Of a stretch of DNA of 64,000 bases, positions 13,769-55,073 are shown piece by piece. The position numbers and the translations under genes are program-made. The notes under the pieces are model-generated. The model did not search any database. It was not told the origin of the DNA and saw nothing but the letters and a program-made list of their open reading frames with translations. Origin of the DNA: Sphingopyxis terrae subsp. terrae NBRC 15098 (lineage in GTDB: Bacteria; Pseudomonadota; Alphaproteobacteria; Sphingomonadales; Sphingomonadaceae); the NCBI RefSeq assembly GCF_001598815.1, contig NZ_BCZQ01000020.1, forward strand, positions 1 to 64,000. Direction: 5' to 3'. How positions within the stretch are numbered: the first letter of the stretch is position 1; each line of letters begins with the position of its first letter.

Positions 13769-14157
13769 GGGCGGCGCGAGGGTCCGGAATCACGATGGCC
13801 CGGTGTCACGATGGCCGGGAATCACAACGCCCGGGCCTCATCCGAGACCCGGGCGCCTGTGACGAACGTCGCCATCCCCCTTGTGCACAGGCCAGGCGAC
13901 CGGCCTGCACTCCCTGGAACCGGGCCTTGCGCCGCGTTGAACCAGAAGCCATTGGGCTATGCGCCGCGCCGGGCTTTGTCACCCATTCGTCGACAGGCTG
14001 CGGCGCTTTTGCACCGTCCTGTGGCCGTTCGGCAACATATTCTGCGAATCGTTCGCAGCGAATTGCGCCCCACGGTGGCCATTGCCAGCGGCCCGGACGC
14101 CCCCTAAAGCGGCGGCATGACCGCAACGCGCACCGCGCCTGAAGGGGCGTCCGCCCG
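13769..14157. other. Non-coding gap mutL-lolC with palindromes; possible small RNA
   Basis: 389 bases lie between mutL and lolC. Small open frames exist (for example minus strand 14126-13806), but their third codon positions are only about half G/C, unlike the strongly GC3-biased neighbours, so I do not call a protein. Two clear structures are present: a perfect 8-bp hairpin at 13828-13855 (CGCCCGGG/CCCGGGCG) and a 7-bp palindrome at 14042-14058 inside a motif that recurs upstream of hemA. Their order on the minus strand (operator-like site, ~200 bases, GC hairpin) would fit a small regulated RNA. This is inference. Confidence 0.35.
14039..14057. promoter_or_regulatory. Fur/Irr-like palindromic site (copy 1)
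   Basis: The sequence ATTCTGCGAATCGTTCGCA is a palindrome with arms CTGCGAA/TTCGCAG around TCG. The same 19 bases occur on the minus strand at 54244-54262 upstream of hemA. The layout TGCGAAT-C-GTTCGCA fits a Fur-family 7-1-7 site, and GAA-N3-TTC also fits the core of Irr (ICE) sites. It could control lolC (100 bases downstream) or a minus-strand transcript in the gap. Confidence 0.45.
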
Positions 14158-15400
14158 ATGATCCTGCGTCCTTACGAACGCGCCATCTTCAAACGCTATC
14201 TGCTTCCGCAACGCGGCGAAGGCTTCATCTTCGTCGCGGCGGCGTTCAGCTTTACCGCGGTGATGCTGGGGGTCGCGGCGCTGGTTATCGTGATGAGCGT
14301 GATGAATGGCGTCCGCTCCGACCTGTTCGACAAGATCGTCGGGTTGAACGGGCATGCGGTGGTGCAGGGCTTTGGCGGCCGTCTCGACGACTGGCGCGAT
14401 CTGCTCAAGGAGGTGAAGGCGACGCCGGGCGTCGTGTCGGCGACCCCGCTGATCGAGCAACCCTTGCTCACCACCTTCAACGGGCGCGTCGAGGGGGTGC
14501 TGGTGCGCGGGATGACCGTCGCCGACATTCGCGGCAACGGCGTGCTCAACGGCAAGGTGTTGCAGGGCAATCTCGATTCGCTGACGCCGGGGACGGACAA
14601 TGTCGCCATCGGCAGCGAATTGGCGCGCAATCTGGGCGCGACAGTCGGGTCGATGATCACGATCATCAACCCCGCAGGCCGGTCGACGCCGTTCGGAACC
14701 GTGCCGCGCGAAATTGCCTATCGCGTGTCGGCGATCTTCGAGATCGGCGTCTATGATTTCGACAAGGCCTATGTCGTGATGCCGATGGAGAATGCCCAAC
14801 TGCTGCTGCTCACCGGCGATCAGGTCGGGATGATCGAGATCAAGACGACCGATCCCGACAAGGTCGGCGAGATATTGCAGCCGCTGGCCGAAAAGGTCGC
14901 CGCGCAAGCGGTGATTTCGGACTGGCGATCGATGAACAGCAGCCTGTTCGAGGCGCTGTCGGTCGAGCGCGTCGCAATGTTCGTGATCCTGTCGCTGATC
15001 GTGCTCGTTGCCGCTTTCAACATCATCTCTTCGCTCATCATGCTCGTCCGCGCCAAGACGCGCGACATGGCGATCCTGCGCACCATGGGCGCGCCGCGCG
15101 ATGCAGTGATGCGCATCTTCATGGCGATCGGCCTGTCGATCGGCGTCGCGGGAACCATTGTCGGCATGATTATCGGCTTCAGCCTGCTCTACTTCCGCGC
15201 CGGCGTGCTGCGCGGGGCGGAGTTCCTCACCGGGCAGCCACTGTGGGATCCGTCGATCCGCTTTCTGACCGAATTGCCGTCGAAGCCCGATCCGTTCGAA
15301 ATCGTCGGCATTGCGGTGATGGCGATCGTCTTCAGCTTCCTCGCGACGCTCTATCCGGCGCTCAAGGCCGCGAATACCGATCCCGTGCAGGTGCTGCGCT

Positions 15401-15408
<8 letters not shown>
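14158..15408 (+). CDS. lolC: Lipoprotein-releasing ABC transporter permease LolC/E
   Basis: Inner-membrane permease (416 aa) that extracts outer-membrane-destined lipoproteins and hands them to LolA. It has an FtsX/LolE fold: N-terminal helix after [20 protein letters not shown] with [18 protein letters not shown], a periplasmic domain at about 50-260, and three C-terminal helices with [17 protein letters not shown] and the end [20 protein letters not shown] single permease gene next to lolD is usual outside enterics, where one LolF-like protein replaces LolC and LolE. A 14-codon frame (14117-14161) overlaps its ATG; it may be chance. Confidence 0.94.
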
Positions 15409-52252: not shown

Positions 52253-52942
52253 TCAGTCGTCGAAGCCGACGAAACGCACCGCCTCGTCAACGGTTTTGCG
52301 GTTCGATACCACGGCGTTGGCGGGAAACGCCTCGTCGGGCCAGCCCATGGCGACGCAGATCATGATGACCTGATCGTCGGGGATTTGCGCATGTTCGCGC
52401 ACGACCGGGCTCTGCATGATGCCTTGGCTGTTGATGACGCACCCCAGCCCGCGCGACCAGGCGGCGTTGACCAGCGCATTGGTCACCGCCCCGCAATCGA
52501 AAGGCGCGATATCGCTGCCGAGCAGCACCCGGTCATAGGTTACGACGATGCTGACCGGCGCGTCGAACTGGCGAAAGCCGCGCAGCACCCAATCCTGCCG
52601 CGCATCCTTGTCGTCGCGCGCAATGCCCATCGCCCCGAAGAGCTGCTTCGCGATTTCGATCTGCCGGAAGCGATGCTCCTCGGCGATGCCGTCGAAACGG
52701 CGAAACTCGCGGCTGTCGGGCTTGCCGGCGAGAATGCCGTCGGTGTTGCCCTGGCGGATGGCGGCGAGCGCATCGCCGGTGACGACCGAGAAATTCCAGC
52801 ACTGGTTGTTGAATGACGAAGGCGCGCGCATCGCGACGCCGATGATTTCGGCGATCAGTTCGCGCGGAACGGGCTTGTCGAGGAAGCCGCGGATCGAGCG
52901 GCGGCCGCGAACGACCGCGTCATACGCTTCGGCTTCAGTCAC
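52253..52942 (-). CDS. Nitroreductase family protein
   Basis: 229 aa FMN enzyme. N-terminal [21 protein letters not shown] and [18 protein letters not shown] give the FMN-binding region; [18 protein letters not shown] and [18 protein letters not shown] the C-terminal FMN site. Substrate unknown. The start overlaps the hemA stop by 4 bases (ATGA), so it is translated with HemA. Confidence 0.9.
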
Positions 52943-54165
52943 GCGGCGATTTTGAATTCGAGTTCGAGCCGGCCCCAGATTTCGACCAGCGCCTGCGTCA
53001 GCTCGCGCATCATCGCTTCGTCATGCGCCGGGCCGGGCGTGAAGCGCAGCCGTTCGGTGCCGCGCGGCACGGTCGGGAAATTGATCGGCTGCACATAGAC
53101 GCCATATTCGGCGAGCAATATGTCGCTGATCTTCTTGGCGCGCACCGGATCGCCGACCATCAGCGGGACGATGTGGGTCACCGAATCCATGACCGGCAGG
53201 CCGGCATCGCGGAAACATTGCTTGAGGTAAGCGGCGGCGGCCTGCTGCGCATCGCGTTCCTCGCTCGACCCCTTGAGGTGGCGGACGCTGGCGAGCACGC
53301 CAGCAACGAGCACCGGCGACAGGCTGGTCGTGAAGATGAAGCCCGGCGCATAGCTGCGGATCACGTCGACGATATTCTTGTCGGCAGCGATATAGCCGCC
53401 CATCACGCCGAACGCCTTGCCCAGCGTGCCTTCGATGATGGTCACGCGGTGCGCGGCTTCGTCGCGTTCGGTGATACCGCCGCCGCGCGGGCCGTACATG
53501 CCGACCGCATGGACTTCGTCGCAATAGGTGAGGGCGTTATATTTGTCGGCGAGGTCGCAGATCGCGTGGATCGGCGCGACGTCGCCGTCCATCGAATAGA
53601 CGCCCTCGAACGCGATCAGCTTCGCCGCGTCGGGATCGTCGGCGGCCAGAAGCTCCTCGAGATGCGCGAGGTCATTATGGCGCCAAACGCGCTTTTCGCA
53701 GCCCGAGTTGCGGATACCCGCTATCATCGAGGCGTGATTGAGTTCGTCCGAATAGATGATGCAGTTCGGGAGCAGCTTGCCGAGCGTGCCGAGCGTCGCT
53801 TCGTTCGAGATATAGCCCGAGGTGAAGAGCAGCGCGCCTTCCTTGCCGTGCAAATCGGCGAGTTCGGCCTCGAGATCGATGTGATAGTGCGTGTTGCCGC
53901 CGATGTTGCGCGTGCCGCCCGATCCGGCGCCGACGTCGTGCAGCGCTTCTTCCATCGCGGCGATAACCTTGGGGTGCTGGCCCATGGCGAGATAGTCGTT
54001 CGAACACCAGACGGTGATCGGCTTCGGCCCGTTGTGCCCGGCAAAGCATCGCGCGTTGGGGAAGGCCCCCTTGTTGCGCAGAATGTCGATAAAGACGCGG
54101 TAACGGCCTTCTTCGTGAAGGCGGTCGATGGCCCGGGCGAAAATATCGTCGTAGTTCACTTGCAT
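52939..54165 (-). CDS. hemA: 5-aminolevulinate synthase
   Basis: PLP enzyme (408 aa) condensing glycine and succinyl-CoA in the C4 heme pathway, typical of alphaproteobacteria. Start ATG 54165 ([20 protein letters not shown]); the open frame extends upstream but that part is not family-like. Motifs: [49 protein letters not shown] and PLP Lys250 in [15 protein letters not shown] Fur/Irr-like palindrome lies about 80-100 bases upstream. Confidence 0.97.
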
Positions 54166-54243
54166 GCCCCGCAGTTTCGGGTGCGCGGCCCCCGCCGGCG
54201 CGATAACCGGGCGGCAATACGCGCGATTTTCCGTGAAATCCAG

Positions 54244-54262
54244 TGCGAACGATTCGCAGAAT
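54244..54262 (-). promoter_or_regulatory. Fur/Irr-like palindromic site upstream of hemA (copy 2)
   Basis: The minus strand reads ATTCTGCGAATCGTTCGCA, the same 19 bases as 14039-14057. Arms TGCGAA/TTCGCA flank TCG. It lies 79-97 bases upstream of the hemA ATG, just downstream of the murI stop. Iron or heme control of hemA is a plausible function. Confidence 0.5.
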
Positions 54263-54266
54263 TGGG

Positions 54267-55073
54267 TCAAATTGTCTCAATTCGCCCGATGCCATACGGC
54301 GCCAGCGCGGCCAGCGGCGGGGGCGGGCGATCGTCGCTGCGCGTGAAGACCGCAATGCCGGGCGCTGCCGTCTTGGGCCACGCCTGCCCTTGGGTGAGGT
54401 GCGCGATCCGCCGCGCAATTCCCGTAGCGCCGTCGATCAGCGTGACGCCGGCTCCGGCCGCTGCCTGCAATTCGTCCTGCAGCAGCGGGAAGTGGGTACA
54501 GGCCAGGACGATGACGTCGATGGCATCGCCGCCCGCCTGATCGGTCAGCCCGGCGAGCGCGCGTGCAATCGTGGCGGGATCGACCGGATCGCCGCGTAGC
54601 TTGCCCTCGGCGGCGGTGACGAGTTCGGGGCTGCCGTGGCGAAGCACGGTCTTGTCGCGCGCGAATTTGGCGCTGAGGTCGTCGACATAGGGCTGCCGCA
54701 CCGTCGCCTCGGTCCCCAGCACGCCGATCACGCCGCTGCGCGTCAGTTCAGATGCGGGCTTGATCGCGGGCACGGTTCCCACGATCGGCAGGTCGAGCGC
54801 CGCGCGAACATGCGCTAGCGCGATGGTCGATGCCGTGTTGCAGGCGATGACGGCGAGCCGGGGATGGTAGCGTTCGACCAGCCGGCCGAGCAGCGCCGGC
54901 ACACGCGCCGCGAGTTCGGCATCGCTTTTCTTGCCATAGGGCAGGCCGGCATAGTCGGCGGCATAGACGATCGGCGCCGTCGGCAGCAGCGCGCGCGTCG
55001 GCCCGAGGACGGTCAGTCCGCCAAGGCCGCTGTCGAAAAAAAGAATGGGCGCGTCGGGCGCGGGAGTCTGCAT
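54267..55073 (-). CDS. murI: Glutamate racemase
   Basis: Cofactor-independent racemase (268 aa) making D-glutamate for peptidoglycan. N-terminal [22 protein letters not shown]; catalytic cysteines Cys78 in VIACNTAST and Cys192 in [24 protein letters not shown] near the C-terminus. Size is normal. Divergent from plsY, with ~126 bases between them. Confidence 0.96.

Follow-up and report, generated by a model that had tools for sequence, protein, structure and literature searches.

Probable Fur boxes upstream of hemA and lolC in Sphingopyxis terrae

Results

The same 15-bp palindrome, TGCGAATCGTTCGCA, lies upstream of both hemA and lolC in Sphingopyxis terrae subsp. terrae NBRC 15098, and we consider it highly probable that the cell's Fur protein uses the two copies as operators (Fur boxes). 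This reading rests on comparison of sequences, which revealed a motif of the Fur type, iron genes as its neighbors, a Fur protein that keeps the DNA-contacting residue pair, and the conservation of the two sites. As an element the Fur box is familiar, and the hemA and lolC sites are new instances of it. The DNA analyzed (the window) is the first 64,000 nucleotides of contig NZ_BCZQ01000020.1; the features described below are listed in Table 1.

Table 1. Palindromes, genes and putative promoter elements in the window
Feature	Position	Strand	Remarks
Fur-box-like palindrome TGCGAATCGTTCGCA upstream of lolC	14043..14057	+	Fur-like in 43/50 distinct Sphingopyxis sequences
Putative -35 of lolC, TTGCCA	14082..14087	+	From conservation
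Putative -10 of lolC, TAAAGC	14105..14110	+	From conservation
lolC, lipoprotein-releasing ABC transporter permease	14158..15408	+	TIGR02212, 403.6 bits (cut-off 362.45)
hemA, 5-aminolevulinate synthase	52939..54165	-	TIGR01821, 649.4 bits (cut-off 338.55)
Putative -10-like hexamer of hemA, GTATTG	54215..54220	-	23 nt 3' of box
Putative -35-like hexamer of hemA, CTGGAT	54238..54243	-	Taken 17 nt 5' of putative -10
Fur-box-like palindrome TGCGAATCGTTCGCA upstream of hemA	54244..54258	-	30/30 Sphingopyxis and 47/71 further family loci

A palindrome repeated in two intergenic regions

The original prediction drew attention to a longer repeat, the 19-mer ATTCTGCGAATCGTTCGCA, which it described as non-coding and unlikely to recur by chance. 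Exact copies were found at 14039-14057 on the plus strand and at 54244-54262 on the minus strand of the window, with no third copy even when three mismatches were allowed. Gene coordinates around each copy placed both outside coding DNA, one in the gap between mutL (end 13768) and lolC (start 14158), the other between murI (54267-55073, minus strand) and hemA (start codon 54165, minus strand); mutL and murI were named from Pfam MutL_C and Asp_Glu_race. Shuffled sequences contained a mean of 0.07 matches and none of 100 shuffles contained two, and on these shuffles and the reversed-pattern control given below chance was dropped as the source of the repeat. The palindrome proposed for its core needed trimming: the strict form TGCGAA-TCG-TTCGCA stood, and the outer C...G pair was present only in the lolC copy and absent from the hemA copy. 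The weight given to the full 19 bp had to be reduced as well, since the identity is real in the window but is partly luck. In the near-identical sister genome G013 the sequence is agatcTGCGAATCGTTCGCA at hemA and attcTGCGAATCATTCGCA at lolC (rows L035 and L065), and the two loci no longer have 19 bp in common. The 19-bp identity was therefore dropped as a separate signal; the conserved part of the 19-mer is the 15-bp core.

Occurrence of the palindrome across the genome

Analysis of the whole genome with TGCGAANNNTTCGCA at no more than one mismatch identified 24 places, compared with 5 for the reversed pattern. All four exact copies of the palindrome were intergenic and contained the whole 15-mer. 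The expectation that the motif would be found beside iron and haem genes was upheld at 12 of the 15 intergenic places, which adjoin iron, haem or Fe-S genes; against it, 9 of the 24 places lay within genes (as split by a codon-usage gene caller made for this analysis), one of these overlapping the start of a TonB-dependent receptor gene. The 12 iron-adjoining places comprised TonB-dependent receptors (four, one of them beside a FecR-like gene), an ECF sigma factor (one), a BFD-like ferredoxin gene (three), and FTR1 permease, a PepSY_TM protein (classed as iron-related by judgement), cysteine desulfurase and hemA (one each). Of the remaining intergenic places, one is beside lolC, one beside a PAP2 protein and one beside an ORF that has no NCBIfam match. 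We also observed three Fur-like palindromes within 76 bp immediately 5' of a bfd-like ferredoxin gene (G000:C19:41923-41998, L029).

A scoring matrix was prepared from 11 training sites, with the hemA and lolC sites, the third bfd place, the PAP2 place, the second L020 place and the genic places left out. In the window, the hemA copy had the highest matrix score (20.1) and the lolC copy the second highest (17.1), followed at 12.6 by the next best site. The training sites scored 18.6 to 32.5, and the lolC copy thus falls under the lowest of them. When the 15-bp core was scored alone both copies reached 24.2; their flanks are poorer than those at most training sites.

Likeness to known Fur operators and proteins

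That the motif resembles a Fur operator was borne out by comparison, made by eye, with the footprinted and crystallized operator of Magnetospirillum gryphiswaldense, whose Fur protects the feoAB1 operator TTAATCGCAACTCATTCGCAATTGC and was co-crystallized with the form TTAATTGCAAATCATTTGCAATTGC (PMC4506495, in the part covered here). On the same part of that source, the operators share an odd palindrome, GCAA/GCGA half-sites and a TC(A/G)T center (PMC4506495). They differ in that the Magnetospirillum arms are GCAAA, as far as that source was covered, whereas those of Sphingopyxis are usually GCGAA, and the Sphingopyxis sites are predicted ones with hemA and lolC as targets.

The genome of the strain encodes two FUR-family proteins by Pfam, a clear Fur (L016) and a more distant member (L017, 36.9 bits to Pfam FUR) that by our own reading is Zur-like. 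L016 is 141 amino acids long and reaches 132.1 bits with Pfam FUR. Among NCBIfam models it matches Fur best, but the score of 103 bits is under the cut-off of 146 and counts against the assignment. It is orthologous to Magnetospirillum Fur over residues 7-136 (E 2.3e-55, 190 bits), and as we read the alignment, the DNA-contacting Tyr-Arg pair is kept, with Arg in place of Lys15. By score, the nearest of the solved structures was 5fd5 (E 1e-57, 197 bits), deposited as a ferric uptake regulation protein, which we take to be rhizobial Fur/Mur. This score, higher than the 190 bits for Magnetospirillum Fur, would suit a Fur orthologue that responds to manganese (Mur) and not to iron as the protein bound at the boxes; we regard this as improbable, as the neighbors of the motif are iron genes and the Fur-box promoters of tonB2, fiuA and feoA in Sphingobium respond to iron (PMC7376174, in the part covered).

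The Irr alternative raised in the original prediction fared worse. Irr controls haem synthesis in other alphaproteobacteria as a regulator of haem status, and hemA as a target would fit such an operator; moreover, two of 149 family genomes encode proteins barely under the 170-bit Irr cut-off, at 160 and 157.5 bits (G243:C1:434493-434867 and G245:C150:8796-9164, respectively). However, none of the 149, the genome of the strain included, exceeded the cut-off. The strain has only the two FUR-family proteins described above, its best Irr score was 49.9 bits (L016, about 50 bits, 49.9-50.3), and the same motif also stands before iron-uptake genes. We therefore consider Irr very unlikely. Operator likeness, iron-gene neighbors, one clear Fur and the lack of an Irr over cut-off together support Fur and not Irr, and it may fairly be inferred that one iron regulator acts at both loci.

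Two other Fur systems offer further points of comparison, each taken from a partly covered source. In Sphingobium sp. SYK-6, of the same family, gel shifts demonstrated binding of purified Fur1 to iron-gene promoters that contain Fur boxes, and Fur boxes precede TonB-dependent receptors, as the motif does here; in contrast, hemA and lolC each occur 0 times in the main text of that study (PMC7376174). In the Fur regulon of Caulobacter crescentus, iron genes are likewise preceded by a palindromic Fur motif, 19 bp in length, whereas the main text, as covered, is without hemA, ALA synthase or lolC (PMC3751524).

Conservation and promoter layout of the hemA box

For each gene, the best 30 loci from a search of 60 genomes were taken, and records titled only Sphingomonadaceae, Alphaproteobacteria or Proteobacteria but close by lolC were counted as Sphingopyxis. 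The box was present in all 30 of the best Sphingopyxis hemA loci (27 exact), with variable flanking bases. At the level of the order, represented by 80 of 134 matched genomes, 47 of the 80 hemA loci exceeded the best of 60 shuffles. With a core score above 12 as the criterion, 47 of 71 loci from the same family have the box, as does, weakly, 1 of 9 loci of other families. The 71 include two from divergent Sphingopyxis members, and both of these have the box. Its absence followed lineage, with 18 of 18 loci of genera g2 and g15 lacking the box and 47 of 53 family loci outside these genera having it. Since the matrix marks down boxes of the GCAA type, absence outside Sphingopyxis was rechecked with a looser pattern, which was found in 6 of the 32 box-less loci, at -199 or further. 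The loci are related, so these counts are not independent of one another.

A consensus scan identified no promoter for hemA. All 30 Sphingopyxis loci nevertheless have a -10-like tetramer exactly 23 nt 3' of the box. In the other 48 boxed hemA loci, tetramer matches numbered 33 at 32 nt, 8 at 23 nt and 9 elsewhere, and 4 loci had none. At a fixed spacing of 17 nt 5' of the tetramer, the hexamer frequently takes the form CTGGNT or GTGGNN, which is poor for a -35. This layout predicts the center of the hemA box near -43 or -52, two positions 9 bp apart. Activators often bind near these positions, although a repressor may also do so.

The lolC box in Sphingopyxis

For lolC, 69 loci with a start gave 50 distinct sequences, after rows in which the start was not found had been dropped (L092, L111, L133, L137, L166, L167 and L169). 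The lolC of the strain is 85-91% identical to those of its Sphingopyxis relatives and at most 72% identical to those of the next genera. A Fur-like palindrome was present upstream of lolC in 43 of the 50 sequences (GCGA type, 36; GCAA type, 7). Most of the GCAA-type palindromes are GCAAATCATTTGC, the core of the crystallized Magnetospirillum operator; the strict pattern was lost in 7 of the 50. Conservation was thus detected before both orthologous genes, for lolC in Sphingopyxis only. Of 34 lolC loci from other genera, one was above a core score of 12, at -392, and no counterpart stood out among them, the looser pattern matching 2 of 34 (at -145 and -73) compared with 24 of 680 shuffles.

The consensus scan returned no promoter for lolC. 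TTGC[CG] followed 17 nt on by TAAAG was present in 50 of 50 distinct sequences. The distance from the center of the box to this putative -35 was 28-32 bp in 38 sequences, 20 in 3 and 43 in 2; the shifts may correspond to about one helical turn, a reading given little weight as it concerns five sequences. In the strain itself the putative start lies about 67 bp 3' of the box center.

Two further features were observed near the lolC box. Directly 5' of it, at 14020-14037, lies TGTGGCCGTTCGGCAACA. The pattern TGTGRC-N6-GCAACA was present at this spot in 69 of 69 Sphingopyxis loci, and TGTG[AG][CT]-N6-GCAACA in 17 of 34 lolC loci of other genera; the genome of the strain contains the former at 4 exact places, or 33 with one mismatch compared with 18 for the control, and several of the neighboring genes resemble, by eye, those of TonB-dependent receptors. 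In addition, a 14-codon ORF at 14117-14161 starts near the predicted transcription start and ends in a TGA that overlaps the lolC ATG. Its ATG is visible in most rows of the lolC alignment (judged without counting), and the ORF is either a leader peptide or chance.

Methylation and hairpin readings of the conserved palindrome

CcrM and GcrA exert cell-cycle control through GANTC methylation, and a GANTC sequence lies within the box at all 30 of the best Sphingopyxis hemA loci. That the site serves such methylation is, in our judgement, most improbable. Any such core with a central C or G beside T contains GANTC, 20 of 48 order-level hemA boxes and the lolC boxes of the form GCAAATCATTTGC are without it, and the conserved palindrome reaches beyond it. 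GANTC methylation was dropped as the main constraint because the sequence is missing from many boxes. Least probable of all is an RNA or DNA hairpin, such as a mutL terminator or an RNA leader element: the short dyad is perfect and as RNA the lolC site folds into a hairpin of 7 pairs, but neither palindrome has the G+C-rich hairpin plus T-run of an intrinsic terminator, Rfam matches in the window amounted to a tRNA only and folding energies were close to shuffled values (z -1.33 and -0.25), on which three grounds it was dropped, and the same core stands before iron genes.

Box position at cysteine desulfurase genes

Orthologous cysteine desulfurase loci (L254-L283, with L271 and L275 dropped as the start was not found) kept the box in 28 of the 28 scored. 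In 12 of the 28 the box lies 33-34 bp 5' of the start codon, and the AAGGA that follows would be a ribosome-binding site. An arrangement in which iron-gene boxes lie between -35 and -10, with AATAGA or AATAAG often 3', was weakened as a candidate by these orthologues. This layout leaves unproven any difference between uptake genes and hemA in where the box lies. Separately, the 28 scored loci carry CTATATAG or CTATACAG at a fixed distance of about 35 bp 5' of the Fur box; this sequence is perhaps a -10 element or another operator.

Discussion

Our preferred reading is that the two palindromes are Fur boxes. Iron-loaded Fur dimers would bind the TGCGAAtcgTTCGCA core at both copies, and Fur bound there would alter transcription. 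At hemA there are two fixed distances, either of which would set the box immediately 5' of the putative core promoter. Fe-Fur appears slightly likelier to activate hemA than to repress it, and activation would couple haem synthesis to iron; this lean follows from the position of the box and from the need of haem for iron; both the lean and the promoter positions are uncertain because the consensus scan gave no promoter at either place.

A broader proposal is more tentative and, on balance, doubtful: that Fe-Fur activates hemA directly in the Sphingomonadaceae, almost all of which lack Irr, and that lolC of Sphingopyxis has joined the same iron regulon. Direct activation would take place from a box just upstream of a poor -35, at two positions 9 bp apart. 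As in Irr systems, haem synthesis would be tied to iron through a FUR-family protein, in contrast to those systems with no Irr over cut-off among the 149 family genomes. Caulobacter crescentus Fur has direct positive targets in some instances, but its positive control is mainly indirect, according to the part of the study covered (PMC3751524).

Within a literature search of partial coverage, no Fur box before a sphingomonad hemA or lolC was found, though a 2006 comparative iron-regulon study may list one; none appears in the covered parts of PMC7376174, PMC3751524, PMC4506495 and PMC6154995. Conservation of the hemA box in many relatives suggests that Fur may tie haem production to iron in these bacteria. 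The real question is how alphaproteobacteria without Irr match haem to iron, and a Fur box before hemA makes that question testable across the family. If the lolC site works, it would reveal an unexpected tie between iron and the export of outer-membrane lipoproteins.
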